This document shows positions 1-63,118 of a stretch of DNA of 64,000 nt, piece after piece. The first letter of the stretch is position 1. Each line of letters begins with the position of its first letter. A program made the translations under genes and the position numbers. The stretch is from a virus. The stretch spans positions 1-64,000 of the IMG/VR virus record IMGVR_UViG_3300043446_001478. One strand, 5' to 3'. The notes under the pieces are model-generated. The model was not told the DNA's origin and made no database searches. It was given only the letters and a program-made list of their open reading frames with translations.

Positions 1-238
1 CTTCCCACCGTTCTTCCCACCATTCTTCCCATTCTTCCCACCGTTCTTCCCACCATTCTTTCCATTCTTCCCACCATTCTTCCCTTACTTCCCATTCTTC
101 CCGTTCTTCCCACCATTCTTCCCGTTCTTCCCGTTCTTCCCACCGTTCTTCCCTTACTTCCCATTCTTCCCGTTCTTCCCACCGTTCTTCCCGTTCTTCC
201 CGTTCTTCCCACCGTTCTTCCCACCATTCTTCCCATCA
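1..238 (+). repeat. Coding tandem repeat, 9- and 12-nt units
   Basis: Units of TTCTTCCCA/G (9 nt) and TTCTTCCCACCG/A (12 nt) alternate for about 240 bases. Both are multiples of three, so repeat-number changes keep the reading frame. A few units diverge, such as TTCTTCCCTTAC. This looks like a coding minisatellite rather than an intergenic repeat. Confidence 0.85.
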
Positions 239-346
239 TTCGTAGGAGGATGTACATGTACAGGATCGTGCTTCTCACCTAAGTCAAATCCATGCAACTC
301 ATACTGCGGTTGTTACTTTAGTGGAAACTCATGTGTTTTCTGTTAA
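2..346 (+). CDS. C-terminal part of a Phe-Phe-Pro repeat protein with Cys-rich tail
   Basis: The gene enters from the left and is open in frame 2 to TAA at 344-346. The first ~80 residues are almost only Phe and Pro with a few Tyr (FPPFFPPFFPFFP pattern). The last ~35 residues hold eight Cys (GGCTCTGSC at the repeat exit, then PC, YCGC, SC, FC) and could form disulfides or bind metal. Two observations favour this frame: Tyr substitutes for Phe in it, which is conservative, and its stop lies just before a promoter. The two other + frames are also open through the repeat, ending near 244 and 283. I infer a structural, possibly virion-exposed protein. The family is not identified and the N-terminus is unseen. 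Confidence 0.6.
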   Translation, partial: FPPFFPPFFPFFPPFFPPFFPFFPPFFPYFPFFPFFPPFFPFFPFFPPFFPYFPFFPFFPPFFPFFPFFPPFFPPFFPSFVGGCTCTGSCFSPKSNPCNSYCGCYFSGNSCVFC

Positions 347-691: not shown

Positions 692-1405
692 ATGTATACT
701 TATGACGAAAACCAAAATCCTTGGTTTACAAAAGATAGATCAGAAACAGCATCAAATAGATACCCAACAAAAAGTTTGTCAAACGGGATAGTTGTAGAAA
801 ATCCTGGATTGGGATTAAATGTCTATAGAAATGTTTTCAATAAAGAAGATGCAGATAGATATATCAAAACTCTTGAGTCAAATCTAGATGGTACAAAAAG
901 ATATAAATGGTCTGAAGCACAAGTAACAAATTCTTCAACGCCTATTAAAAAAGCAAGAGATTGTGTAGATTTTAAATACAAACAAGAAAATCTTGGTCCA
1001 AGAGATGAATTTAATGCAGAGTTAATAGACTTACATGAAGAAATTTATCAAAAGTTAAAGTTTTGTATAGATGATTATGCACAGTATTGGGGAATTAATG
1101 TTATTTATTATGAGGCTTTTAATTTTGTAAAGTATGAAGGAGAAGGCAAACATTTTAATATTCATGCCGATCACGGTCCCGCATATAATGCTACAGTTTC
1201 AGCAGTTATATATATTAATGATGATTATGAGGGAGGAGAAATTCAATTTCCAAGATTGGATGGATATACTCTTACTCCAAAGGTAGGGGACATTGCAATC
1301 TTTCCATCTAACTATATCTACGAACACGCATCTCTTCCAATGAAGAGCGGTACAAAATATTGTGTAGTAATTATGACTGACATTAATGAATTAGGTCATA
1401 AATAA
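692..1405 (+). CDS. 2OG-Fe(II) oxygenase, P4H-like (1 of 8)
   Basis: A 237-residue non-haem Fe(II)/2-oxoglutarate dioxygenase. The double-stranded beta-helix core carries H158-x-D160 and distal H212 as iron ligands and K222 as the probable 2-oxoglutarate anchor, ten residues after the His. YINDDYEGGEIQF at 174-186 is the hallmark of the prolyl-4-hydroxylase type found in many aquatic phages. Such enzymes hydroxylate proteins or small molecules while converting 2-oxoglutarate to succinate; the substrate here is unknown. All key residues are intact, so it is probably active. The start is an ATG after AAGGAG, and the stop overlaps the next ATG (TAATG). It is the first of eight divergent paralogues in this operon. 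Confidence 0.9.
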   Translation: MYTYDENQNPWFTKDRSETASNRYPTKSLSNGIVVENPGLGLNVYRNVFNKEDADRYIKTLESNLDGTKRYKWSEAQVTNSSTPIKKARDCVDFKYKQENLGPRDEFNAELIDLHEEIYQKLKFCIDDYAQYWGINVIYYEAFNFVKYEGEGKHFNIHADHGPAYNATVSAVIYINDDYEGGEIQFPRLDGYTLTPKVGDIAIFPSNYIYEHASLPMKSGTKYCVVIMTDINELGHK

Positions 1406-2181
1406 TGGAATCAATATATAATAAAATATCTTTTAAATCATATAGACCATGGTTAACTAAACAAAGTGATTCTGTTCCTTCTTCAACTCAAAAAGAGATA
1501 CCTCAATGGTATAAAGATGCAGATAGATTTGCTAAGAATCCATTTAACGGAGAATACTATAAAGCACCGAAAGAGGTTTGTCCATTTCCAAAAGAAGGAA
1601 CAACCAATGACTACGGAATGATTCCTACGTGGAAGGCTTGTCCAGCATTAATGGATGCTTTTATGACTGGATATGTTCTTAAGACCCCTTGTGATTTAGT
1701 ATTTTTTAAAAATGATAAAGGTAAGATAGATGTTAAGGTTGAGTCTATGTATAAAGATTTTTGTACGCCAAGACCACCAATGCCACAATTTAAACATCCT
1801 TTGGGATATTATCCAGATCACTTTGCATGGATGCCAGATTGGGGTTTGCAGTTACCAGAAGGATATAGTGCTTTATTTATGACACCAATGAATAGGTTTG
1901 ATCTTCCCTTTATGAGTACTACTGGAATTGTTGATTCAGATAAGGTTCATATTTTAGGAAGTTTTCCATTTTTTATCGTTGATGGATGGGAAGGTACAAT
2001 TCCTGCTGGAACACCGTATTTACAAATATTTCCATTTAAAAGAGAAAATTGGGAACATGAAATTGAAATTTTAGACTCAACAACAATGTATGCTAAAATA
2101 GTAGATAATGCAAACTTTTATCGTCAGCCAGATGGTGGGGTATATAAAGATAAAGTTTGGACTAGACGAGAATATAAATAA
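1405..2181 (+). CDS. Phage protein with a PxWYK...GYxL signature (DUF6065-related?)
   Basis: A 258-residue soluble protein, rich in aromatic residues and Pro. It has IPQWYKDADRF near 32, a Cys-Pro segment (KACPALMDAFMTGYVL) near 86-101, and FMTPMNRFDLPF and IPAGTPYLQIFPF in the second half. The gene at 63775 is a clear relative with the same order of signatures (VPEWYK, KKCMPIFDLMTAGYIL). The layout resembles the DUF6065 gene at 2874, suggesting a shared fold. Function is unknown. It overlaps the preceding oxygenase by one base and is co-transcribed with the island, so a role in the same modification pathway is plausible. Confidence 0.7.
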   Translation: MESIYNKISFKSYRPWLTKQSDSVPSSTQKEIPQWYKDADRFAKNPFNGEYYKAPKEVCPFPKEGTTNDYGMIPTWKACPALMDAFMTGYVLKTPCDLVFFKNDKGKIDVKVESMYKDFCTPRPPMPQFKHPLGYYPDHFAWMPDWGLQLPEGYSALFMTPMNRFDLPFMSTTGIVDSDKVHILGSFPFFIVDGWEGTIPAGTPYLQIFPFKRENWEHEIEILDSTTMYAKIVDNANFYRQPDGGVYKDKVWTRREYK

Positions 2182-2190
2182 GGAGAAACT

Positions 2191-2874
2191 GTGTCAACTT
2201 GGACAAGTAAAGAAAGTCTTGGTAATGGTATAACATGTTATAGAGGTGTTATTAAAAAAGACCTTGATTTAATAAATAGATTAGAAAGTGTACTTGGAGA
2301 GCCAGCACCATGGGGAGAACTTTCAAAAGATGGTAAAAGGTATCATTGGCTACCAGCGTATGTTGGTTACCAGCAACTAATGCCAGAATATCGTGATTGT
2401 TACGATTTTAAGTTTAAGAAAACAGACATAGAATCAGATCCTTCTGAAGATTCTTTATTTTTGCAAAAAATTTGGCAAGATGTGTATGATGTTCAAGCAC
2501 CAGCAGTTGATGATTATAGAAGAGATTACAATATTATGCCATTAAAATATTGGGAAGCGTTTAACTTTATTAAGTATAATTCTGGACAACACTTTAAAGA
2601 ACATCACGACCACGGCTATTCCTATAACTGTACCGTTTCGTTAGTTGCTTATATAAATGACGACTATGACGGAGGAGAACTATACTTTAGATTACAGGAT
2701 TTAAATATTAAACCTCAAGCAGGAGATCTTTATATATTCCCTTCAAACTTTATGTATCCACATAGGGCTATGCCAGTAATTAATGGAACAAAGTATTCAA
2801 TTGTTACTATGTTAGATTATAGTAAAAAATATCATACTCCAGATATGTATGATCCAAAGTGGGAAAACGAATAA
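2191..2874 (+). CDS. 2OG-Fe(II) oxygenase, P4H-like (2 of 8)
   Basis: A 227-residue paralogue of the 692 enzyme. Ligands are H138-x-D140 (EHHDHG) and H191, with K201 for 2-oxoglutarate; YINDDYDGGELYF occupies 154-166. It starts at GTG 2191 after AAGGAGA, one of several GTG starts in this genome. Among the eight it is closest to the 692 enzyme: both share WEAFNF/YEAFNF, the HGxxYN segment after the HxD, and GTKY. That suggests a relatively recent duplication with the 1405 gene caught between the copies. The substrate is unknown. Confidence 0.9.
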   Translation: MSTWTSKESLGNGITCYRGVIKKDLDLINRLESVLGEPAPWGELSKDGKRYHWLPAYVGYQQLMPEYRDCYDFKFKKTDIESDPSEDSLFLQKIWQDVYDVQAPAVDDYRRDYNIMPLKYWEAFNFIKYNSGQHFKEHHDHGYSYNCTVSLVAYINDDYDGGELYFRLQDLNIKPQAGDLYIFPSNFMYPHRAMPVINGTKYSIVTMLDYSKKYHTPDMYDPKWENE

Positions 2875-3584
2875 TGTTTAATATAACTGTTGAAAAAATG
2901 GATGGAGGAATTTTTGAATTAAATCCTATGCCTATCAAAAGAGATTGGATGGATGTTACTTCAGAAAATCATGCTTACAGATGTTTTCCAGTCACACAAT
3001 CAAACGTTATTGGCTGGTATCTTTCATGTACAGAAGATATAATTTTTACATGGGACGGTATAAATGATCAAACAGATCAACATGTACAAATAACTAATCC
3101 AAATGGTTCTTATGCTGGAAGAGGGCAGTCATCAATAAGTTTAAATACATCATTAGTATTTAGAACTGACCCAGATGTAAGTATTTGGACAATTAATCCA
3201 GTTAATTACTTTAATGATGACTTTGAAACAATGTCTAGTTTAATAAGTACATCATTTTATGATAACCCTCTTCCACTTGCAATTAAAGCAAAAAAGGCAA
3301 ATGTTGAAACAGTCATAAAGGCTGGAACTCCTATTGCTACAATTATTCCTATTTCATTGACTAATCTAAATAATACTTCTATTAATATTATTAAATATAA
3401 AGATGAGGATAGATCAAGGCATAATGCAAATATGGAATATGGTCAGGCAGCACAAGTATTAAACTCTTCTGGACAGTGGACAGATTGGTATAGAAATGCA
3501 GTAAATGAAAAAAATGAATCCTTGGGTTCACATGAAGTAAAAACATTAAAGTTATCAGTAGAAGATAACACTAATAGAGGATGA
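2874..3584 (+). CDS. DUF6065-like protein
   Basis: A 236-residue protein starting at an ATG that overlaps the previous stop by one base (TAATG). Features read by eye are RCFPVTQSNVIGWYL near 33-47 (an RC-P...GW entry), a TWDG segment, a Gly-Arg-Gly-Gln loop, LVFRTDPDVSIW, and KAGTPIATIIPI late in the protein. This order matches my recollection of DUF6065, a family often found beside oxygenases and methyltransferases in phage and bacterial accessory loci. No biochemical role is known to me. It ends two bases before the -10 element of the next gene. Confidence 0.6.
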   Translation: MFNITVEKMDGGIFELNPMPIKRDWMDVTSENHAYRCFPVTQSNVIGWYLSCTEDIIFTWDGINDQTDQHVQITNPNGSYAGRGQSSISLNTSLVFRTDPDVSIWTINPVNYFNDDFETMSSLISTSFYDNPLPLAIKAKKANVETVIKAGTPIATIIPISLTNLNNTSINIIKYKDEDRSRHNANMEYGQAAQVLNSSGQWTDWYRNAVNEKNESLGSHEVKTLKLSVEDNTNRG

Positions 3585-3590
3585 TATAAT
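3582..3590 (+). promoter_or_regulatory. Leaderless-type extended -10 promoter
   Basis: TGA-TATAAT, whose TGA is also the stop of the upstream gene. TATAAT ends six bases before the ATG at 3597, the same spacing seen at 23681, 59749 and 61595. Confidence 0.5.
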
Positions 3591-3596
3591 AATATG

Positions 3597-4349
3597 ATGA
3601 TGCCAGAAGATGCTATAGAAGTAGTTAGGAAACCATCACTAACCCCTTCTGGATTTTTTGGAAGTGGTCCAGAAAATATTATAGAATTAGAAAATTTTAT
3701 GACTCAAGAAGAGTTAGAGTTTTTAGATTCTGCTGCCAGAAATTTAACTATATGGGATATTACTCAAAGCCATAAAAATGAAAATGGAACAATAATTTAT
3801 GATGCTGATTATTGGAAGGATAGAGTTTGTAGTGCTCCATCACTAAATCAAAATGATCCAAACATTGTTCCAGTTATTGTTGGTTTATTTAATAGACTAC
3901 AGCCAGTTATTGAAAACTTTTTTAATGTTAAAGTTCAACCAACTGGACAAACAATTGTAAAATGGCCTCCAGGATATTACCAACTTCCACACGCAGATAA
4001 GGAATTACACTCTGGGCCAGATGCTGGAACACCTAATGATTTTCCTAATTATGATATAGCAAGTTTGTTTTATATTAATGATGATTACGTAGGTGGAGAA
4101 TTATATTTTCCAAATCAAGGAATTCAATTTAAACCTAAAAGAGGATCTGCATATTTTTTCCCAGGAGACATGAACTACGTACATGGCGTTACTGAAGTAC
4201 AGAGTGGCATGAGATATACCTGTCCCTTCTTTTGGGAAATTCTAGATCACACTGGAGATGTAAAGCCAGACTTTAGTAAAGAATACTATAGAATTTTTCC
4301 AACTAATGAACAAACTGCAAAATGGGATCCAAAGCGAGGTATAAAGTAA
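3597..4349 (+). CDS. 2OG-Fe(II) oxygenase, P4H-like (3 of 8)
   Basis: About 250 residues. Three ATG codons stand in a row at 3594, 3597 and 3600. I choose 3597 because it lies exactly six bases after TATAAT, suggesting leaderless translation. Numbered from 3594, the ligands are H133-x-D135 and H197, with R207 in place of Lys for 2-oxoglutarate. YINDDYVGGELYFP spans 160-173. The N-terminal ~60 residues (FMTQEELEFLDSAARN) resemble the helical cap of other P4H-like enzymes, where the substrate groove lies. The substrate is unknown. Confidence 0.88.
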   Translation: MMPEDAIEVVRKPSLTPSGFFGSGPENIIELENFMTQEELEFLDSAARNLTIWDITQSHKNENGTIIYDADYWKDRVCSAPSLNQNDPNIVPVIVGLFNRLQPVIENFFNVKVQPTGQTIVKWPPGYYQLPHADKELHSGPDAGTPNDFPNYDIASLFYINDDYVGGELYFPNQGIQFKPKRGSAYFFPGDMNYVHGVTEVQSGMRYTCPFFWEILDHTGDVKPDFSKEYYRIFPTNEQTAKWDPKRGIK

Positions 4350-5251
4350 TGGAACTAACAGTAGAAGAAATTTATCCAAGAATATTTGTATATAATAATA
4401 TATTTGAAGATCCACAAAGAATGTATGACATTATAAAACGAATTGATACACAAGATGATCAACTATTTGAATCTTGGAAAGAATGGTACACCTTCGGAAT
4501 GAAGGTTGAAGATTTTGGTATATGGTTTGATAGAACTAAAAATCAAACTGTGGCCCTTGCTGATGTTGAAACAAAAAATGAAATTCAAGAAGAACAAAAA
4601 TATTTTATTACAGAATTAATTAATGGTTTTCATAAAGTCAATAATGACTATATTAAAAGATTTGATTTAGATATAGATTTAAATGCAAAATCTTATCCAA
4701 TAAATCCATTACCACAAGGTCAGGCTGATGACTTTAGAACCTTTACAGAAGAAGTACCTACCTGGCGCTGGACTGGTCCAAGTCTATGTAAATATTTTAT
4801 AGATGCTGGAAATGGTGAAGATTTAGAAATGAATTATCATTCTGACTATATAAGAGAACCTATTGTTACACCAGGATATAAATTTGCAATAACAACAACC
4901 ACATATTTTAATGACGACTATGATGGAGGAGATTTAGATTTTGTTATTGACAATAAACTAATAGGATATAAACCAAAGATGGGAGATTTTGTTGTATTTC
5001 CATCAGGACACCCAGATATACTAACCGAAAATGGTAAAGTATATTTACACGGAGTTAAAAATTCTTATAAAACAGAAAAATATTTTACAAGACTATACTG
5101 GACAAAGTTTGACCAAGGAGATCCAGAATGGTTTGAGAATGAAGCAAAGTACGGTAAAGAAGAGTGGGCAAAGATGCAAGGTCCAATAATGGAAGAATAC
5201 AGACAAAATGTTCAAAAAAAGGACATAGATAAATGTGTGAGGATACGATGA
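4349..5251 (+). CDS. 2OG-Fe(II) oxygenase, P4H-like (4 of 8), extended
   Basis: At 300 residues from ATG 4349 it is the largest of the eight. The start overlaps the previous stop (TAATG) and is preferred over ATG 4322, which would add nine residues inside the upstream gene. Ligands are H164-x-D166 (YHSD) and H234, with K244 at the usual +10 position; YFNDDYDGGDLDF spans 186-198. About 50 residues of charged helix follow the core, including EEWAKMQGP. The longer N-terminal half suggests a different substrate from copies 1 and 2. Confidence 0.88.
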   Translation: MELTVEEIYPRIFVYNNIFEDPQRMYDIIKRIDTQDDQLFESWKEWYTFGMKVEDFGIWFDRTKNQTVALADVETKNEIQEEQKYFITELINGFHKVNNDYIKRFDLDIDLNAKSYPINPLPQGQADDFRTFTEEVPTWRWTGPSLCKYFIDAGNGEDLEMNYHSDYIREPIVTPGYKFAITTTTYFNDDYDGGDLDFVIDNKLIGYKPKMGDFVVFPSGHPDILTENGKVYLHGVKNSYKTEKYFTRLYWTKFDQGDPEWFENEAKYGKEEWAKMQGPIMEEYRQNVQKKDIDKCVRIR

Positions 5252-6009
5252 ATCTAAATAATAAAGATAGACTAAATAAAGATATAGTTGTTTATAAAAA
5301 CTTTATTGATCCAGAAACTGCTAAAAAATTAGTAAAAGTTTTAGATAGACATGCAGAAGAGGGAAAACTAACCTGGATGCCAATATCTTTTTATGAATCA
5401 TATTCATCTGTATTGCCACAAGATGATGATGAAATTGTAATAGAAGAAGGACTTCCAGCAACTATTTTTTCAGATATGAAAAAACAAATAATTAATGCAG
5501 TTGCATCAGTACATGATATTGATCCTAACATTGTTTCTCAAATTGGATACCATACTCAAAAATGGGAACCAGGAGCATATGCAAGAATTCATTCTGACAA
5601 CACAGATGAAAAGGGAAATTCGGGAGCATTTACAAGAAGTAGATATGCTGCCTTTTTATATTTAAATGATGATTTTGAGGGTGGGCTTTTACAATTCCCC
5701 TCCCACAATATAAGTATTAAGCCAGAAGTTGGAATGCTTGCAGCATTTGATGGCGGGTTTAATAATATGCATGAAGTAACTATTATAACTAGTGGAGTAA
5801 GATATACAATAGGTTCGTTTTGGGATGATCGTGAAGAAGATGCATATCCTCAAGAATTACGAGATGCTTGGGCAGAAGAAATGAAAAAGATTAGAGATAA
5901 TCAAGAAATTGAAAGGTCCGAATGGCAAAACTTGCTTAAAGAAGGATATAAAATAGATAAAGAAGGAAATAAGTATAGAATTGAGGACGGTGTAATTCCT
6001 CATGATTGA
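5248..6009 (+). CDS. 2OG-Fe(II) oxygenase, P4H-like (5 of 8)
   Basis: A 253-residue enzyme. I use ATG 5248, which follows a GAGG and overlaps the previous stop as ATGA; the in-frame ATG 5233 is less well placed. Ligands are H115-x-D117 and H175, with R185 for 2-oxoglutarate; YLNDDFEGGLLQFP spans 138-151. A lysine- and glutamate-rich tail of ~50 residues follows the core, as in copy 4, so these two may form a subpair. Confidence 0.88.
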   Translation: MNLNNKDRLNKDIVVYKNFIDPETAKKLVKVLDRHAEEGKLTWMPISFYESYSSVLPQDDDEIVIEEGLPATIFSDMKKQIINAVASVHDIDPNIVSQIGYHTQKWEPGAYARIHSDNTDEKGNSGAFTRSRYAAFLYLNDDFEGGLLQFPSHNISIKPEVGMLAAFDGGFNNMHEVTIITSGVRYTIGSFWDDREEDAYPQELRDAWAEEMKKIRDNQEIERSEWQNLLKEGYKIDKEGNKYRIEDGVIPHD

Positions 6010-6661
6010 TAATTTTAAAGAAAAATTAAAAGAAAATAACCTTGAGTTTGAAGAAATTACTGATCAACTACTTTGGATTAAAAATTTTTTAACAAAAGAA
6101 GAATTAGATTTCATTTGGAAAATAATAAATAGTGCATCCCAAAAAGATTGGGAAGTAGAATATATGGGCAATTTAAAAAATTTTTGTTTAGAAAAATTTG
6201 GTAGAGATGATGTCGATAATCTTGTTGCTGAAGGTAAATTTGAAATTACACAAAATTGGATTGATAAAAATTTAAATATTAAGCATCATTCAGAACAACA
6301 TGTTTTTTATAATAGATTATCAGATTTAATTAATCCATCTTTTCCAGGTTTAGAACTAAGTGGTCTTGCAACTATCCAAAGAATGCAAAAAGATGTAGAG
6401 TTAAAATCACATACAGATCAGCATACAGATCCATCAATACATTATGCAACAATATTATATATTAATGATGATTATGTAGACGGAGAATTATTTTTTCCAA
6501 ATAAAGACTTATCATTAAGACCAAAACCAGGGGACCTATTATTTTTTCCAGGTAACGAAGAATATGAGCATGGAGTTAAACATGTCGGAGACGGACCAAT
6601 AAGATATGTAATTGTAGGCTTTGTAAAAGAAATAGGACACTACGAAAGGAATAAATATTAA
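6002..6661 (+). CDS. 2OG-Fe(II) oxygenase, P4H-like (6 of 8)
   Basis: A 219-residue enzyme overlapping the previous gene by eight bases. Ligands are H137-x-D139 and H190, with R201 as the probable 2-oxoglutarate contact. The signature reads YINDDYVDGELFFP at 153-166, with Asp replacing the first Gly of the usual GG pair, a small departure from its relatives. Otherwise the active site is complete. Confidence 0.87.
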   Translation: MIDNFKEKLKENNLEFEEITDQLLWIKNFLTKEELDFIWKIINSASQKDWEVEYMGNLKNFCLEKFGRDDVDNLVAEGKFEITQNWIDKNLNIKHHSEQHVFYNRLSDLINPSFPGLELSGLATIQRMQKDVELKSHTDQHTDPSIHYATILYINDDYVDGELFFPNKDLSLRPKPGDLLFFPGNEEYEHGVKHVGDGPIRYVIVGFVKEIGHYERNKY

Positions 6662-6662
6662 A

Positions 6663-7394
6663 ATGAATAAAGAAATACTAGATCCAAAGGTATACTACTA
6701 TACTGATGCAATAGATAATTTTGATGTTTTTATGCAAACCTTAAATGAGTTAGATAATATGGACTCAGATTCTGATACTGGAGTCAATGTTTGGCAAAAA
6801 TGGACATCGTCTAATGATCAAAATTTTATTTATGGAGAAACAAAAACTTTTGATGTTAATTCAATATCTAAATTTGATGGTATAGTTGGAGAAAAAAGTA
6901 AATATATTTATGATGCAGTTATGACAACTTTATATAATGTATCTAAAGACTATGCAGAAGCCATGGGTGATTTTGATGAGCCAAGATTATTTCCAACCTT
7001 TAATATTAAAAAATACTATACTGGAATGGCTATGGGAGCACACTTTGACCAATTAGATGGAGATAAGACGTTAAGATATTCACTCGTTATGTACTTGAAT
7101 GATGACTGTGAGGGTGGAGAAATTTCTTTTCAATTAAAAGATTATGATGGAGGATGGAATAGCAAAGATGGTTGGATCCACGGTGCTCCACCAGTTAATT
7201 TAGATTATGATGATGCTGTTGCAAATAATGCAATTGATTTTGGAATTAAGCCAAAAGCAAATAGTGTTATTATTTTTCCAGCAGAGGCTCCATATTTTCA
7301 TACTGCACATACCGTAAAGTCTGGAGTAAAGTATATGGTTCCAGGTCATTGGATCCATAATAGTATGGAACTTAATAAGCAGCAAGGTATGTAA
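6663..7394 (+). CDS. 2OG-Fe(II) oxygenase, P4H-like (7 of 8)
   Basis: A 243-residue enzyme. Ligands are H127-x-D129 (HFDQ) and H213, with K223; a second His at 216 could be an alternative. MYLNDDCEGGEISFQ at 143-157 carries Cys where the others have an aromatic residue. It has a ~30-residue insertion between the signature and the distal His, rich in Gly, Asp and Trp, that should change the rim of the active site. The stop overlaps the start of the dehydrogenase gene by one base. Confidence 0.87.
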   Translation: MNKEILDPKVYYYTDAIDNFDVFMQTLNELDNMDSDSDTGVNVWQKWTSSNDQNFIYGETKTFDVNSISKFDGIVGEKSKYIYDAVMTTLYNVSKDYAEAMGDFDEPRLFPTFNIKKYYTGMAMGAHFDQLDGDKTLRYSLVMYLNDDCEGGEISFQLKDYDGGWNSKDGWIHGAPPVNLDYDDAVANNAIDFGIKPKANSVIIFPAEAPYFHTAHTVKSGVKYMVPGHWIHNSMELNKQQGM

Positions 7395-8062
7395 TGAAAA
7401 CAGCCATAGTCACTGGTGCTAGTAAAGGTGTTGGCTATGCAACTGTAAAACTTTTATCTGAGAATGGATATAAAGTTATTGCTGTTTCAAGAGATATAGA
7501 TAAACTCTCTACACTATTATCTGATAATATTGAGATATATAAATTAGACATAACTCAAGAAAATCAAATCAGAGACTTTTTTGAAAAATATAAAAATATT
7601 ACATTAGATTTATTAGTAAACAATGCTGGCGGTGGTGCAGGGCCAACATATATAATTAATGAAACTATGGAAAACTTCAGAACAGCATATGACATTAATG
7701 TTTCTGGACCAATGTATTTATCTCAGTTGTTTGTTCCTTGTATGAAAAAATCAGATTCTGCAACAATTATTTTTATAACTTCCTTTTGTGGAAAGGTGCC
7801 ATTTAGAGGTGGCGGTAATTATAGTAATGCTAAACGAGGAGAAATGGCCCTAATAGACACAATGCGTATGGAGTTTCCAGAGTATGGAATTAAAGTTACA
7901 GAAATTTGTCCAGGTACAATAGATACACAATTAGAGAAAAAAGAAATTTCATTAACTGCCGAAGATATGGCAGAAACTATTAGATGGGTTGGATCATTGC
8001 CAAAACATATGAATATAAATCATTTGGAGGTAAGCCATATATTTAATAATAAGTATATGTAA
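7394..8062 (+). CDS. Short-chain dehydrogenase/reductase (SDR)
   Basis: A 222-residue Rossmann-fold NAD(P)-dependent oxidoreductase of the classical SDR type. It has the cofactor loop TGASKGVG at 7-14, LDIT at 51-54, NNAGGG at 76-81, N102, and the catalytic set S129/S130, Y143 and K147 (YSNAK). ICPGTIDT at 171-178 is the usual post-catalytic PG segment. It is slightly shorter than typical SDRs (~250 residues). Being embedded among oxygenases, it may oxidise or reduce a product they hydroxylate; that link is inference. Confidence 0.92.
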   Translation: MKTAIVTGASKGVGYATVKLLSENGYKVIAVSRDIDKLSTLLSDNIEIYKLDITQENQIRDFFEKYKNITLDLLVNNAGGGAGPTYIINETMENFRTAYDINVSGPMYLSQLFVPCMKKSDSATIIFITSFCGKVPFRGGGNYSNAKRGEMALIDTMRMEFPEYGIKVTEICPGTIDTQLEKKEISLTAEDMAETIRWVGSLPKHMNINHLEVSHIFNNKYM

Positions 8063-8067
8063 ATAAT

Positions 8068-8634
8068 ATGAAAATTAATAAGTTATATGATGATGTGTAT
8101 GAAATTAATGATTTTTTGACTAATGACGAAATGTCTGAGGTTTATAAAATTATTAATAATTCCCCAGAAGAAAAATGGTTTGATGAGGAAATGAAAAAGG
8201 AACAACAAATACCAGATTTTTGGTTTGGCAAAAATTTATACTTTAAAGAAAATACAATTTTTGATTCTATAAATCAAAAAATGAAAAACTTATTTGAATC
8301 ATATTCTTATTATCCAGATAAAATGCATTTACAAAGATATAAAAAGGGAGACTTTATAAAGCATCATGCCGATCAGTGGAGAACAGATATAGACTACTAT
8401 ATTGGTTATGGATTTTGTCTTTATTATAATGATGAATATGCTGGAGGAGAATTAGACTATCCAGAACTAAATATTACAGTCAAACCAAAGGCCAATTCAC
8501 TGTATATTCACGGTGGACATATAGTACATGGCTCACTTCCAGTTTTAGATGATACAATAAGATACTTCTCAACTGTTTTTATACGTGGAACAAATGAGCA
8601 ACCAACAAAATTAAAAGGAGATTTATTCATATGA
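8068..8634 (+). CDS. 2OG-Fe(II) oxygenase, P4H-like (8 of 8), compact
   Basis: The shortest of the set, 188 residues. Ligands are H100-x-D102 (HHADQW) and H154, with R165 for 2-oxoglutarate; YYNDEYAGGELDYP spans 119-132. LQRYKKGDFIKHHAD before the ligands is the classic strand leading into the HxD turn of P4H-like proteins. It is separated from the dehydrogenase gene by only five bases and overlaps the methyltransferase gene as ATGA. Confidence 0.9.
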   Translation: MKINKLYDDVYEINDFLTNDEMSEVYKIINNSPEEKWFDEEMKKEQQIPDFWFGKNLYFKENTIFDSINQKMKNLFESYSYYPDKMHLQRYKKGDFIKHHADQWRTDIDYYIGYGFCLYYNDEYAGGELDYPELNITVKPKANSLYIHGGHIVHGSLPVLDDTIRYFSTVFIRGTNEQPTKLKGDLFI

Positions 8635-9245
8635 CAAATATTGGATTTATGAATGAAAGTTTAGGATTTCATCAAATGACAGAACAAGAACAGTTTATTA
8701 TTGATATTTTAGATAAGAAAAGAAATGGCTATTATGTAGAGTTGGGTGCAGCACATTATAGCAAGGGAAATAACACATATACATTAGAAAAAGAATATGA
8801 TTGGACTGGAGTATCTTTTGAAATTGTAGAGTCAATGCGAAATGAATTTAATGAAAATAGAAAGAACCCATGCATGGGTGATGCATTAACTTTTAATTAT
8901 GTAGATTATTTTGAAAAAAATAATTTTCCAAAACAAATAGATTATTTGCAGTTAGATATAGACGCTGGGTATGATATGGCAGGAAGACCTGTAGGAAACA
9001 GCCATTGGACTTTGCAGGGGCTTATAGCAATGCCCTTAAATACTTATAGATTTACTCTTATTACATTTGAACATGATGCAAACATGTATTGGAGAAATGA
9101 TAAGATTAGAGATGTACAAAGAGAAATATTAGATTCATTTGGATATGCTCTTGTTCATAGGTCATATCATGAAGACTGGTGGGTAGATCCTAAAGTAATG
9201 CAACATGGAGATTTTAGAGAATACCTTCATTGGCAAACTTTATAA
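8631..9245 (+). CDS. FkbM-like SAM-dependent methyltransferase (copy 1)
   Basis: A 204-residue protein with a Rossmann-type SAM site: GYYVELGAAHY near 33-43 is motif I and IDYLQLDIDAG near 103-113 is the second acidic strand. The gene at 53420 is a paralogue with the same order (GTYIEIGAGHY, IDFLSIDID, RDIQRDIL). FkbM-type enzymes usually O-methylate sugars or small hydroxylated metabolites. Its place as the last gene of the oxygenase operon suggests it could methylate a hydroxyl installed by those enzymes; this is inference. Confidence 0.75.
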   Translation: MTNIGFMNESLGFHQMTEQEQFIIDILDKKRNGYYVELGAAHYSKGNNTYTLEKEYDWTGVSFEIVESMRNEFNENRKNPCMGDALTFNYVDYFEKNNFPKQIDYLQLDIDAGYDMAGRPVGNSHWTLQGLIAMPLNTYRFTLITFEHDANMYWRNDKIRDVQREILDSFGYALVHRSYHEDWWVDPKVMQHGDFREYLHWQTL

Positions 9246-9333: not shown

Positions 9334-11364
9334 GTGTCTGATTTTTTTAGTTTTCGTTTGTCTGAAGAGTTTATAAATGAGTATAAATCAAAGGAGCCAC
9401 CATTTGGATTTACAGATGCTGGCAATAATTCATTAGGAGAGATTACATTTATTCGTACTTACTCCCGTATGAAAGAGGATGGAACTAAAGAAAGATGGTA
9501 TGAGGTTTGCCGTCGTGTAATCGAGGGTATGTATTCAGCACAAAAGAACCATGCTAAAGAAAACAGACTGCCATGGAATGATTATAAGGCTCAAGCGTCT
9601 GCTAAAGAAGCATATCAAAGAATGTTTGAATTAAAATGGACACCACCTGGAAGAGGTATGTGGGCATTTGGAACTCCACTAACTATGGAAAAGAAAAACT
9701 CTGCTGCCTTACAGAACTGCGCTATGGTTTCTACAAAGGATATAGATCGTAACGACCCAGGACAACTATTTGGTTGGGTCATGGATGCACTAATGATGGG
9801 TGTTGGTGTAGGATTTGATACTTTGGGCGGGGAGAAAAATCTTCCTATTTATAGCCCTACAGAGCCACCACAAGTATACGAAATCCCAGATACTCGTGAA
9901 GGCTGGGTAGAGTCTGTTAGATTATTAATTAATTCATTTTTAAGACCAAACATGTATATTCAGGAGTTTAACTATGACCTTATTAGGCCATTGGGAAGCC
10001 CTATTAAAGGTTTTGGAGGCACGGCAAGCGGTCCTGCACCACTTATACAGTTGCACAAGCAGATAAGGTCTGTAATCGGCGGTAGAGCAGGAGAAACCCT
10101 TGACTCAAGAGCAATAGTAGATATTGTTAACCTTATTGGTACTTGTGTAGTATCAGGAAATGTTAGAAGATCTGCTACATTGGCTTTAGGCGCAGCAGAA
10201 GATAAAGACTTTATGAATTTGAAGAACGCTGAGGTTTTCCCAGAGCGTAATTCATTTGATCCAGAAAATCCAGGTTGGGCATGGATGTCTAACAACTCCA
10301 TTGCTGCGACGGTAGGTACAAAATACGAAGACTACGTAGACCTAATCGTTAATAACGGTGAACCAGGATTTATCTGGCTTGATGTAGCACGTAACTATGG
10401 TCGTTTAGCAGATCCAAAGGATGGCAAAGATTATCGTGTTATGGGCTTCAATCCGTGTGCGGAGCAGCCATTGGAATCATACGAACTGTGCACCTTAGTC
10501 GAGGTACATTTAAATCGTCATGAATCTAAGGAGGACTTTCTACGGACGCTCAAGTTTGCATATTTGTATGGAAAGACTGTTACATTAATTCCAACACACT
10601 GGCAACAGACAAATGGAATTATGCAACGTAATCGTCGTATTGGAACATCACTTACAGGTATTGCATCATTCTCAGACAAGTTTGGCTTGCCTGTTGTGCG
10701 TGAATGGATGGACGAAGGATATAAGACTATTCGTAAATATGATCATTCTTATTCTGAGTGGTTATGTGTTCGTGAATCCATTAGAGTCACAACTGTTAAG
10801 CCATCAGGGTCTGTATCAATTCTTTCTGGCGCAACTCCAGGAGTTCACTGGGCACCAGGCGGAGATTATTTCTTGAGAGCAATTCGTTTTGGGAATACCG
10901 ACCCAATGATTCATTTGTTCAAGGCTGCTGGATATAAGATGGAGGCTGACCTTGTATCTGCGAATACAACTGTCGTATATTTCCCAGTTCACTCTGGACA
11001 TCCAAGATCTGAAAAAGATGTTACATTGTTTGAGAAGATTGCGCTTGCTGCTACTGCTCAGAAATACTGGTCTGATAATGGCGTTTCTGTAACGCTTTCA
11101 TTTGACAAAGAAACTGAAGCAAAGCACGTAGCGCCTGCTCTACATATGTACGAGGGACAATTAAAGGCTGTTTCATTCTTGCCGATGGGAAATCATACTT
11201 ATCCTCAACAACCATATACACAAATAACAGAAGAAGAATATAACAGTTATATTGGTCAAATCAAAAAGATCGATTGGTCTGCTATTTATGACGGTGCTGA
11301 GAATTTAGAAGCACAAGGCGAAATGTATTGCACTACAGATGCTTGTGAATTAAAAATATCGTAG
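9334..11364 (+). CDS. nrdJ: Class II (adenosylcobalamin) ribonucleoside-triphosphate reductase
   Basis: A 676-residue monomeric B12-dependent reductase that makes dNTPs from NTPs. It starts at GTG 9334 after AAGGAGA; the ORF extends upstream to 9274 but that start has no ribosome site. Cysteines map onto the Lactobacillus leichmannii enzyme: C129 (QNCAM) and C386 as the active-site pair, C375 with E377 in NPCAEQ as thiyl radical Cys and Glu, and C666-x4-C671 as the C-terminal shuttle pair. The spacing of 11 between C375 and C386 matches C408/C419 of that enzyme. It needs no oxygen or small subunit, but needs cobalamin from the host. The NrdH-like redoxin at 49537 is a likely electron donor. 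Confidence 0.95.
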   Translation: MSDFFSFRLSEEFINEYKSKEPPFGFTDAGNNSLGEITFIRTYSRMKEDGTKERWYEVCRRVIEGMYSAQKNHAKENRLPWNDYKAQASAKEAYQRMFELKWTPPGRGMWAFGTPLTMEKKNSAALQNCAMVSTKDIDRNDPGQLFGWVMDALMMGVGVGFDTLGGEKNLPIYSPTEPPQVYEIPDTREGWVESVRLLINSFLRPNMYIQEFNYDLIRPLGSPIKGFGGTASGPAPLIQLHKQIRSVIGGRAGETLDSRAIVDIVNLIGTCVVSGNVRRSATLALGAAEDKDFMNLKNAEVFPERNSFDPENPGWAWMSNNSIAATVGTKYEDYVDLIVNNGEPGFIWLDVARNYGRLADPKDGKDYRVMGFNPCAEQPLESYELCTLVEVHLNRHESKEDFLRTLKFAYLYGKTVTLIPTHWQQTNGIMQRNRRIGTSLTGIASFSDKFGLPVVREWMDEGYKTIRKYDHSYSEWLCVRESIRVTTVKPSGSVSILSGATPGVHWAPGGDYFLRAIRFGNTDPMIHLFKAAGYKMEADLVSANTTVVYFPVHSGHPRSEKDVTLFEKIALAATAQKYWSDNGVSVTLSFDKETEAKHVAPALHMYEGQLKAVSFLPMGNHTYPQQPYTQITEEEYNSYIGQIKKIDWSAIYDGAENLEAQGEMYCTTDACELKIS

Positions 11365-53265: not shown

Positions 53266-53427
53266 ATGGCTGCTAAACTATATACAAATGAACTATGGCT
53301 TAAGAAAAGATTTCATATTGATAAGAAATCTCCTGAAGCAATAGCAAAGGAGTGTGGAGTTACTGTGGAAACTATCTATGTATATCTTGCTAAATTTGGA
53401 TTAAGGAAGTCAAACAGAAATGCGTAA
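53266..53427 (+). CDS. Small helix-turn-helix protein (53 aa)
   Basis: ATG 53266 follows CAGGAGAGA. The 53 residues read MAAKLYTNELWLKKRFHID, then SPEAIAKECGVTVETIYVYL as a helix-turn-helix, then KFGLRKSNRNA. The turn (ECGV) and the second helix (TVETIYVYLAKFG) fit the resolvase/homeodomain-like HTH used in phage regulators. It fills the gap between the resolvase and the methyltransferase-like gene and overlaps the latter by eight bases. The TTGACA at 53251 has no matching -10, so the gene is probably expressed by coupling. Confidence 0.75.
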   Translation: MAAKLYTNELWLKKRFHIDKKSPEAIAKECGVTVETIYVYLAKFGLRKSNRNA

Positions 53428-54091
53428 TGAAATAACAATGAAAACAAAAACTAAAAAAAATATTTTTAATCAAAAAAATGAAGAAGTTTTTGTTCCAGTA
53501 TGGACACCAGACGATTTTTTAATCAACGATCACAGTACTCCATTTGCTGCAATAGCAGCATATAAATTTAATGGCGATTTAAAAAATGGTACATACATAG
53601 AAATCGGTGCTGGTCATTATAAACATCAAAACAACACATACCTGTTAGAAACAGAACATGCATGGAAGGGTGTGTCTATAGATATATCAGATATATTAAC
53701 AAATGATTTTAATTCTAATAGAATAAATCCATGCATAATGAGTGATGCTATAACCTTTGATTGGTCTAAGTATTTAATTGAAAATAATTTTCCAGCAGTT
53801 ATTGATTTCCTTTCTATTGATATTGATTTTGAAACACATGAGTCTGCAAATTTATTAGCATTAATTAATTTACCACTAACTCAATATAAATTTAATATTA
53901 TATCAATAGAGCATATGGCTTCAATGTTTTATAAATTTAAAAAATTAAGGGATATACAAAGAGATATTTTAACAATGCTGGGATATCATTTATTGATTCC
54001 TGGAAAAAATGAAGACCTTTGGACAATTCAAGAACCCAATAGTGCAAATGGATTTGACCACATTTCAGGCATGTTTGGTATAGGAGTATAA
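53420..54091 (+). CDS. FkbM-like methyltransferase (copy 2)
   Basis: 223 residues from ATG 53420; ATG 53438 is an alternative. Paralogue of the 8631 protein: GTYIEIGAGHY is the SAM loop, WKGVSIDIS the ribose-binding strand, INPCIMSDAITF and IDFLSIDID the following strands, and KLRDIQRDIL the last helix, each with a counterpart in copy 1. Both lack a signal peptide. The copies are 44 kb apart within the window. The substrate is unknown. It may act in the same pathway as the oxygenase island or on a second target. Confidence 0.72.
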   Translation: MRNEITMKTKTKKNIFNQKNEEVFVPVWTPDDFLINDHSTPFAAIAAYKFNGDLKNGTYIEIGAGHYKHQNNTYLLETEHAWKGVSIDISDILTNDFNSNRINPCIMSDAITFDWSKYLIENNFPAVIDFLSIDIDFETHESANLLALINLPLTQYKFNIISIEHMASMFYKFKKLRDIQRDILTMLGYHLLIPGKNEDLWTIQEPNSANGFDHISGMFGIGV

Positions 54092-61594: not shown

Positions 61595-63118
61595 ATGAAA
61601 AAAATATTTATAACTTTCGTCTTATCATTTTCTTTATTATTACCATCTTGCGTTAACGCAGCAACACCATTAAAGGCATGTCCAAAAAATCAATTAAATA
61701 AAATTAAAGATGGTTTTATTTGTAAAAAGATTGATAATGTTTATAGATGGGCAAAATTAGATGTAGTTCCTACAATAGCGCCAACCATAAAACCAACACC
61801 AACACCATCTGCAACTATTAATACTAAACCAAATGTTACTAAAAAATATTTTAACAGTCCATGCGATCTTGATCCAGATACTCCAACAGAATGGAAAGAT
61901 TTTGAAAGAAAACATATTAACGGTGGCGGTTGTTTAAGTGCACTCAGGATACCAAATACTCAACCCTTAATAGAGTTACCAACAACACAAACAGATAAGT
62001 CTAATTTAAATCTTTCTCAATGCAAAATTGAACAATCTAGAAATAAAGGAAATGTTTTAGGATTTAAAACTTGGGACTCATACTGGCAAACATCACTAAA
62101 ACATCCTTCGCCAAATACTGTTTATCAGGTTATTCCTTTATATTCTGATGACATACCAAACTCTAAAACAAATCCTAATGATGATTTTAAAAAATATTTT
62201 GATTTCATTACTGCTTGGACTAAGCAGGCATCAGATAATGGATCTAATGTAGAATTTAGAGTGCCTAATAATTATATTTATATGCCTGGAAACATATCGT
62301 CATATAATTTAATACACGAAAGAAGTGAATCTTCTGCACAAAGGTTTACAAGTGATTTAGTCAAGGCTGTAGATTCTAAGATTAATTTTTCTGGATCAAA
62401 TATTGCATTAATTTTATTTCCACCATCTACAAATAAAATAATTGGTGATCAAGTAGGTCTAAATAGATTTTTAACAGATGAAGGTTATGTTGTTGGGTCT
62501 ATTATGCCAAGTGGCGGTAGCATTGCTTTAGAAAGAAATTTTTCATGGCCAACATGGTGGATGCATGAATTAATGCATGTTGGAATTGGCTTTGATGATA
62601 ATAATCATTCACAAAGTGATTCACCATCATGGTGGGGATTAATTAATTGGGCATCTACATTTGATCTGCTTGCTTGGCATAAATGGATTGCTGGCTTTAT
62701 TTCTGATTCTCAGGTTATTTGTTTAGATAAAGAAAAGACATCAATAGCCTATATTGCTCCATCTACAGTTAAAAGCACAAGAGATAAAATGATTGTTATT
62801 CCTTTAAGTAATTCAAAGGCTATTGTTATTGAATCACAAAGAGCAGAAGGAATAAATTATAAACTTCCACAAGTTTCAGAGGGTGCTCTTGTTTATTTTA
62901 TTGATATGTCTCTTACAAATCATGCTGATGGTATTAGATTAATATTGCCAAAAAATAAAAATATAGTTAGAGCAGATAATATGAATTCAAAATCACAAGG
63001 AAATAATGCAAACGCTTCACTTAAATTAGGTGAAATTGCAGAGTATAATGGAATTAGAATACAAGTAATAGAATCTGGATCATTTGGGGATGTGATAAAA
63101 ATTGAGCCAACAAGATGA
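61595..63118 (+). CDS. Secreted HExxH metallopeptidase
   Basis: 507 residues. The signal peptide is FITFVLSFSLLLPSC-VNA; C19 might be lipidated, but the residue before it is not ideal for a lipobox. A small N-domain with CPKNQLNK ... ICKK ... YRW resembles Cys-bearing modules of actinobacterial exported proteins, then a Pro/Thr linker. The catalytic site is H324-E325-L-M-H328 in WWMHELMHVGIG, with D334 a possible third ligand as in some HExxHxxGxxD peptidases. WAST-type and GW-like segments follow. It is probably a cell-surface or extracellular protease. The start is leaderless with a strong promoter. Confidence 0.82.
   Translation: MKKIFITFVLSFSLLLPSCVNAATPLKACPKNQLNKIKDGFICKKIDNVYRWAKLDVVPTIAPTIKPTPTPSATINTKPNVTKKYFNSPCDLDPDTPTEWKDFERKHINGGGCLSALRIPNTQPLIELPTTQTDKSNLNLSQCKIEQSRNKGNVLGFKTWDSYWQTSLKHPSPNTVYQVIPLYSDDIPNSKTNPNDDFKKYFDFITAWTKQASDNGSNVEFRVPNNYIYMPGNISSYNLIHERSESSAQRFTSDLVKAVDSKINFSGSNIALILFPPSTNKIIGDQVGLNRFLTDEGYVVGSIMPSGGSIALERNFSWPTWWMHELMHVGIGFDDNNHSQSDSPSWWGLINWASTFDLLAWHKWIAGFISDSQVICLDKEKTSIAYIAPSTVKSTRDKMIVIPLSNSKAIVIESQRAEGINYKLPQVSEGALVYFIDMSLTNHADGIRLILPKNKNIVRADNMNSKSQGNNANASLKLGEIAEYNGIRIQVIESGSFGDVIKIEPTR

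Follow-up and report, generated by a model that had tools for sequence, protein, structure and literature searches.

A viral contig of the IMG/VR database (record IMGVR_UViG_3300043446_001478) carries, close to its start, eight genes encoding divergent 2-oxoglutarate (2OG)- and Fe(II)-dependent oxygenases (O1-O8), and the question raised by this locus is what so many related enzymes act upon. The DNA that we analysed, referred to below as the window, comprises bases 1-64,000 of this 66,603-base record. We compared the oxygenase genes and their surroundings with homologous regions of related phages. This analysis suggests that the array is a phage-encoded protein-hydroxylation cassette, whose probable substrate is a proline/phenylalanine repeat, (P)PFF, located within a fibre-like protein encoded immediately upstream. 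For this reading, in which both catalysis and substrate are inferred, we estimate a probability of roughly two in three.

Identity of the oxygenases

An earlier note on this DNA had described eight intact open reading frames (ORFs), encoding proteins of 188-300 amino acids (aa), each with an HxD motif, a distal His, a Lys or Arg 10-11 residues further on, and an NDDYxGG-like segment. Inspection of the genes, all of which lie on the + strand, bore out all of these features in all eight (in O8 the spacing between His and Lys/Arg is 11 if counted from the VHG His). The description of the genes as one operon of consecutive oxygenases holds in part: they form an operon-like run, in which most genes abut or overlap, and two DUF6065-like genes (D1 and D2) and a gene for a short-chain dehydrogenase/reductase (SDR) are interspersed among them (Table 1).

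All eight products match PF13640 (2OG-FeII_Oxy_3) above the Pfam gathering score of 27 bits; for O4 and O8 the scores are 27.6 and 28.8 bits, and E-values so near to thresholds provide a weak basis for assignment. The pairwise identity of the other oxygenases of the array to O1 is 20-43%. A profile built from the eight proteins gave its best match in the PDB with the prolyl 4-hydroxylase (P4H) of Bacillus anthracis (1.5e-13), followed by prolyl 3-hydroxylase 1, the P4H of virus PBCV-1, PKHD-type hydroxylases, EGLN1 and LH3. The predicted structure of O2 (mean predicted local distance difference test score, pLDDT, of 90.7) has as its top PDB matches the P4H of Pseudomonas putida in complex with EF-Tu (the best), PHD2, an algal P4H with (Ser-Pro)5 and the PBCV-1 P4H; prolyl or lysyl hydroxylases constitute nearly all of its top 50 matches. 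By profile (all eight proteins) and by predicted fold (O2), the oxygenases are thus nearest to peptidyl-prolyl hydroxylases.

A role in DNA modification of the Tet/JBP type was considered and rejected: O3 is the only protein matching Tet_JBP, with 19.2 bits against a cutoff of 34.9, and the Tet-like PDB profile matches are far weaker than those to prolyl hydroxylases. In the PHROG database, families matching these oxygenases (phrog_274, phrog_2297 and phrog_3531) bear the labels DNA endonuclease V, DNA endonuclease and ferrochelatase. The same endonuclease/ferrochelatase labels occur in GenBank annotations (L454 and L455), apparently as an annotation error.

Conservation and age of the array

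Scans with the ribonucleotide reductase (RNR) and O2 sequences revealed dozens of contigs with the gene order O1-D1-O2-D2-O3-(O4)-O5-O6-O7-(SDR)-(O8)-(M)-RNR, containing 6-9 oxygenases (M is a methyltransferase-like gene); arrays with up to 11 oxygenases were found in a search based on the repeat described below. The earlier note had counted routine occurrence of such arrays within the phage group as a point against its interpretation, and they are indeed routine: 6-11 oxygenases stand in the same order in dozens of related contigs. The array is therefore a stable trait of a phage group and is not peculiar to a single genome.

The copies are not decayed. Complete catalytic motifs are present in 680 of 690 homologs, and seven of the eight oxygenases are under strong purifying selection, with median ratios of nonsynonymous to synonymous substitution rates (dN/dS) from 0.05 (O1) to 0.19 (O8); these values cover the seven oxygenases other than O4, which gave no usable pairs. 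In a tree including other phage oxygenases, each slot of the array forms its own deep clade, common to divergent arrays, and the slots pair as O1+O2, O3+O5 and O4+O7. The members of a divergent array in contig L074 also fall into the matching slot clades, wherever the slot is present. The paralogs are therefore ancient and the slots have been kept separately. Recent tandem amplification, which the earlier note had also doubted, can be dismissed, since the copies of one genome do not cluster with short branches.

The slots differ in their variability. O4 is the fastest-changing (27-52% identity to its orthologs, compared with mostly 70-90% in neighbouring slots) and is missing from some arrays. 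The O7 alleles of relatives fall into two groups, with 70-91% or 42-48% identity, and SDR, O8 and M are all optional.

The upstream fibre-like gene and its repeat

The window begins inside a gene on the + strand, whose 3' end occupies the first 346 bases and reads FPPFFPPFFPFFPPFF...FPSFVGGCTCTGSC...C. Contig L088, which is 99.99% identical over 10.2 kb, contains the whole gene, encoding a fibre-like protein of 370 aa composed of (i) a start with the motif SSAQDNF, (ii) an FN3-like region, (iii) a PFF/PPFF repeat of about 126 residues and (iv) a Cys-rich tail. The N-terminal half of the homolog in record G004 matches the fn3 domain (PF00041, 2e-11), and the product of the gene neighbouring it begins with Mtd_N (PF18454, 5.5e-16). 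On these similarities we take the protein to be a tail fibre or receptor-binding protein, presumably located on the virion.

The repeat tracts of the array loci consist of about 53% Phe and 41% Pro. With proline so abundant, this residue is the obvious target for hydroxylation; hydroxylation of Phe or Tyr within the repeat is a possible alternative. A minus-strand reading of the repeat, encoding GKNGG units, is interrupted by stops and was set aside.

Co-occurrence of the repeat and the array

The association of the repeat with the array was examined in both directions. In the forward direction we used 53 array loci in which 2.5 kb or more of sequence precedes O1; 52 of them contain the strict repeat, and the remaining one, L074, has the variant repeat PPFFPPSFPFFPPAFCPFFPNFCP. 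With a broadened pattern the repeat is thus found in all 53 loci (26 clusters at 97% and 11 at 90% O2 identity), compared with none of 26 array-less relatives (23 after dereplication) in which 6 kb or more of sequence precedes RNR. The Fisher p values for three levels of dereplication are 1.9e-21, 1.7e-14 and, for the strictest, 3.5e-9. When whole records were inspected, the strict repeat was present in 13 of 13 array records and in none of five array-less ones; a fourteenth array record, G010, whose array is divergent, has no match to the strict pattern and carries a variant PFFP/FCP repeat instead. Likewise, the divergent array of L074 (44% identity in O1 and 39% in D2) is accompanied by a divergent Pro/Phe/Cys repeat.

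For the reverse direction, IMG/VR was searched with the repeat DNA alone, which yielded 78 repeat ORFs followed by 4 kb or more of sequence. Directly downstream of 71 of these there are at least three oxygenases, located in 99.8% of cases on the same strand, the first at a median distance of 539 bp. They represent 40 distinct arrays (90% identity), some of which are only about 30% identical to the genes of the window. In exploratory comparisons, uncorrected for phylogeny, the proportion of PP within the repeat was associated with the presence of O4 (p 0.004) and of O8 (p 0.001).

Exchange of fibre ends among relatives

In the RNR tree, array-bearing and array-less phages are interleaved. This requires at least seven changes in the presence of the array, four of them forced by well-supported branches, and the repeat changes along with it. 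The pairing is therefore not the outcome of one inherited event.

Over the first 188 residues of the fibre, array phages and the array-less L283 share up to 67% identity. The C-terminus of the L283 fibre consists of a GAF-repeat and a Hint-like end; DUF6065 and RNR genes come next, with no oxygenases. Since the FN3 part is shared and the C-terminus exchanged, it is the repeat-bearing end, and not the whole fibre, that tracks the array. Further array-less fibres have FSPFGVFG or YSFTP repeats at their ends and different genes behind them; the FSPFGVFG, YSFTP and Hint-like ends recur, each with its own set of following genes.

In L018:7306-9840, L030:7293-9847 and L038:7346-9841, the FSPFGVFG-ending fibre is followed by two related genes (A5) that encode conserved HDH...HxH...PRITIAYD motifs and have no Pfam match. 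They are possibly another fibre-modifying pair; Pfam and PDB profile searches gave no support for their being oxygenases. In the fibres of L011, L021, L025, L027, L086, L283 and L066, the repeat region is followed by a terminal Hint/intein-like domain, and these ends are possibly self-cleaving.

Proposed function of the array

We propose that the oxygenases are peptidyl-prolyl hydroxylases which, using 2-oxoglutarate, Fe(II) and O2, would modify the C-terminal (P)PFF repeat, its prolines being hydroxylated during or after synthesis of the fibre. Each of the diverged enzymes may serve its own context, i.e. P in PFF, the first or second P of PPFF, or PYF variants. Alternatively, they may place hydroxyls at different positions of the ring, in the manner of P4H and prolyl 3-hydroxylase (P3H), which hydroxylate different ring positions of proline in collagen. 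Such a division of labour is something that we infer. Hydroxylation would be expected to raise the solubility and stiffness of this very hydrophobic, polyproline-like segment and to make a patterned surface.

The modified residues could be processed further by the optional SDR, by the methyltransferase-like protein and by the products of sugar-related genes at a second locus. This locus (L174:5986-11800, corresponding to G002 25.9-31.8 kb) encodes (i) a long P/A/T-rich protein, putatively a fibre, containing PPFFPPSFPYFPFF and PPFFP stretches, (ii) an oxygenase sister to O1/O2, (iii) a nucleotide-sugar epimerase and (iv) a glycosyltransferase-like protein. Together with a similar gene set in L435, it hints at glycosylation following hydroxylation.

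The earlier note had proposed that selection maintained the copies for several substrates or sequential reactions. Selection on intact paralogs is supported; as to the substrates, the position of the likely substrate gene immediately upstream of the array suggests several sites within a single repetitive protein instead of several unrelated substrates. The fuller scheme, in which the phage hydroxylates its own fibre repeat in a pattern, each slot has its specific sites, and phages exchange the fibre C-terminus and its modifying enzymes as a unit, is put forward tentatively, with odds slightly below even.

Several observations weigh against hydroxylation of the repeat by the array. The need for 6-11 enzymes on a two-residue repeat is unexplained. 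Similarity of fold and profile does not distinguish protein hydroxylases from related enzymes that use other substrates, and the P4H-like enzymes of bacteria may have other proteins as targets, the closest match being a complex with EF-Tu. DUF6065 genes also occur without oxygenases. The codons of the repeat are near-uniform (42 TTC, 20 CCA and 11 CCG), for which reason slippage may have shaped it. Linkage within a variable island could produce co-occurrence without any action of enzyme on substrate. Finally, no array lies downstream of seven repeat ORFs of the reverse search: four encode a second repeat protein of their contig, L403 sits on a contig with an array (L119), and the remaining two, L435 and L448, are accompanied by a single oxygenase each, L435 also by an epimerase and a glycosyltransferase-like gene.

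The best surviving alternative, which we nevertheless consider unlikely, is that the enzymes are peptidyl hydroxylases with other targets, either other virion proteins or, for host takeover, EF-Tu or ribosomal proteins of the host, the repeat being a mere neighbour. The EF-Tu complex as the best structural match of O2 fits this view, as does the existence of many phages with single P4H-like genes, where such repeats are not known. The two-way pairing, the joint gains and losses, and an exchange point within the fibre gene would, however, be unexpected for an array directed at the host.

Somewhat less probable still is hitchhiking, i.e. that the fibre C-terminus and the array share one hypervariable island and move together through homologous recombination, with no functional link between them. 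In freshwater actinophages, fibre regions are known to be variable islands (PMC10202952), and the array adjoins the repeat. Linkage of this kind does not account well for (i) the correspondence of divergent array and divergent repeat in L074, (ii) the persistence of the pairing in arrays of only about 30% identity, (iii) the relationship of the enzymes to proline hydroxylases, coupled with a proline-rich repeat, or (iv) the genes between fibre and array, which vary among relatives.

The tailoring of a small molecule or glycan, e.g. a cell-surface sugar or a modified nucleotide, by sequential oxidations together with SDR and methyltransferase would agree with the presence of such genes within some arrays, with the dUTPase/dCTP deaminase-like predicted fold of D1 and with the frequent location of D-type genes next to RNR, but is very improbable, given that SDR, O8 and M are dispensable, that the Tet/JBP-type matches are so poor, that D1 lacks two dUTPase motif elements (see below) and that the pairing with the repeat would be left unaccounted for.

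Other genes of the region

The features of the region are summarized in Table 1. Matches to the terminator-like consensus, one of which precedes O1, are no commoner in this region than in shuffled sequence.

Table 1. Features of the oxygenase array region, with positions in the window.
Feature	Position	Strand	Remarks
Fibre-like gene, 3' end	2..346	+	(P)PFF repeat 2-235, then Cys-rich tail; 5' part lost at record start
Small ORF, 64 aa	387..581	+	Between fibre gene and array; by eye like the small ORFs that relatives have there
Terminator-like stem-loop	608..635	+	Before O1, separates upstream ORF from array; consensus match
Oxygenase O1	692..1405	+	PF13640 E 2.9e-11; dN/dS median 0.048
D1, phrog_7084 / DUF6065-like	1405..2181	+	dUTPase-superfamily-like predicted fold
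Oxygenase O2, GTG start	2191..2874	+	PF13640 1e-14; predicted fold nearest prolyl hydroxylases
D2, DUF6065 (PF19541)	2874..3584	+	E 3.5e-27
Oxygenase O3	3594..4349 (alternative start 3597)	+	PF13640 4.7e-8; Tet_JBP below cutoff
Oxygenase O4	4349..5251	+	PF13640 27.6 bits; fast-evolving optional slot
Oxygenase O5	5248..6009	+	PF13640 1.6e-8
Oxygenase O6	6002..6661	+	PF13640 9.8e-10
Oxygenase O7	6663..7394	+	PF13640 4.3e-9
SDR	7394..8062	+	PF00106 5.4e-42; absent from some arrays
Oxygenase O8, optional member	8068..8634	+	PF13640 2.6e-6
M, methyltransferase-like, optional member	8631..9245	+	Paralogue at 53420-54091
Class II RNR	9337..11364	+	Conserved; closes region; ORF opens at TTG 9274

The two DUF6065 genes of the array probably encode proteins with a dUTPase-like fold and an accessory role. 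In the structural comparison of the D1 model (pLDDT 88), dUTPases were the best matches (E 5.8e-4, probability 1.0), and dUTPases or dCTP deaminases account for at least 45 of the top 50, with modest TM-scores; the fold is alike, whereas sequence similarity to this superfamily is negligible. D1 lacks the Gly-rich motif 5 of dUTPases and has GIVDSDKVH, without the catalytic Tyr, at the position of motif 3. A working dUTPase was therefore rejected, despite the fitting fold. D1-like genes adjoin class II RNR in the haloarchaeal viruses HF2 and HJTV-3, lie beside oxygenases in the phage-like contigs L257, L258 and L260, and are found a short distance downstream of the fibre gene in many relatives that lack the array. 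The DUF6065 genes of Bradyrhizobium and Afipia have TPR proteins, and not oxygenases, as neighbours, and are uninformative.

The methyltransferase-like paralogs at 8631-9245 and 53420-54091 are 44% identical and far apart, the second with a weak FkbM match. Beyond the window, record bases 63775-66603 (L166:3776-6604) contain two further DUF6065-like genes and a glycosyltransferase-like gene (weak PF11397 match, 0.013), and the record ends in a truncated ninth oxygenase gene. Within the window, 61595-63118 encodes a secreted-looking protein of 507 aa with the zinc-protease-like motif HELMHVGIGFDD and no Pfam match.

The DNA polymerase is 55% identical to that of Streptomyces phages about 127 kb in size; the same group is matched by the major capsid protein at about 39%. 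The G+C content is 34%, and a low-GC aquatic actinobacterium would fit as the host type. Full-length relatives are apparently 110-125 kb in size; in G004 (117,492 bases) the array spans both ends of the record, a circular-map pattern.

Relation to known systems

Aquatic phages very commonly carry P4H-like 2OG oxygenases, the targets of which have been called cryptic (PMC9301287). The array described here offers a concrete candidate pair of enzymes and substrate, in the form of a simple PFF/PPFF repeat encoded beside the enzymes. A search of the open-access literature found no description of the array or the repeat, and an earlier account may exist elsewhere.

The single 2OG-Fe(II) oxygenases of cyanophages and marine phages (phrog_61 and its mislabelled relatives) share the superfamily and domain with the array enzymes, with identities of at most about 38%, and the few that were examined occur in runs of one to four. 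Synechococcus phage Sf-FS3 has two P4H-like genes directly after a very long S74 fibre gene, the end of which was checked and contains no Pro/Phe repeat.

A prolyl 4-hydroxylase and virus-encoded proline-rich repeats have been described for Paramecium bursaria Chlorella virus 1 (PBCV-1; Eriksson et al. 1999, as cited in PMC9301287). Like the phage array, PBCV-1 thus encodes an enzyme of the P4H fold, the structure of which (PDB 5c5t) was among our profile and structure matches. The PBCV-1 repeat differs from the PFF/PPFF repeat of the phages. The PBCV-1 repeats are reportedly acted on by the viral P4H, and we know of no fixed adjacency of the P4H gene and the repeats. PBCV-1 is also distinct in being a giant virus of eukaryotes and is not known to have more than one such enzyme, compared with the phage arrays of 6-11.

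If our interpretation is correct, the phages possess a set of peptide hydroxylases, possibly differing in specificity, for one short repeat, which would explain why they keep many such oxygenases. It would also suggest that a fibre and the enzymes that modify it form a host-recognition module that is exchanged as a whole. The array would then be a bacteriophage counterpart of the hydroxylation of collagen or plant-wall proteins. In collagen and the plant hydroxyproline-rich proteins, several related 2OG hydroxylases (P4H, P3H and lysyl hydroxylase) act on one repetitive proline-rich protein, and hydroxylation is sometimes followed by glycosylation; the PFF/PPFF repeat of the phages, unlike collagen, is devoid of glycine, and the corresponding activity of the phage enzymes is a putative one.

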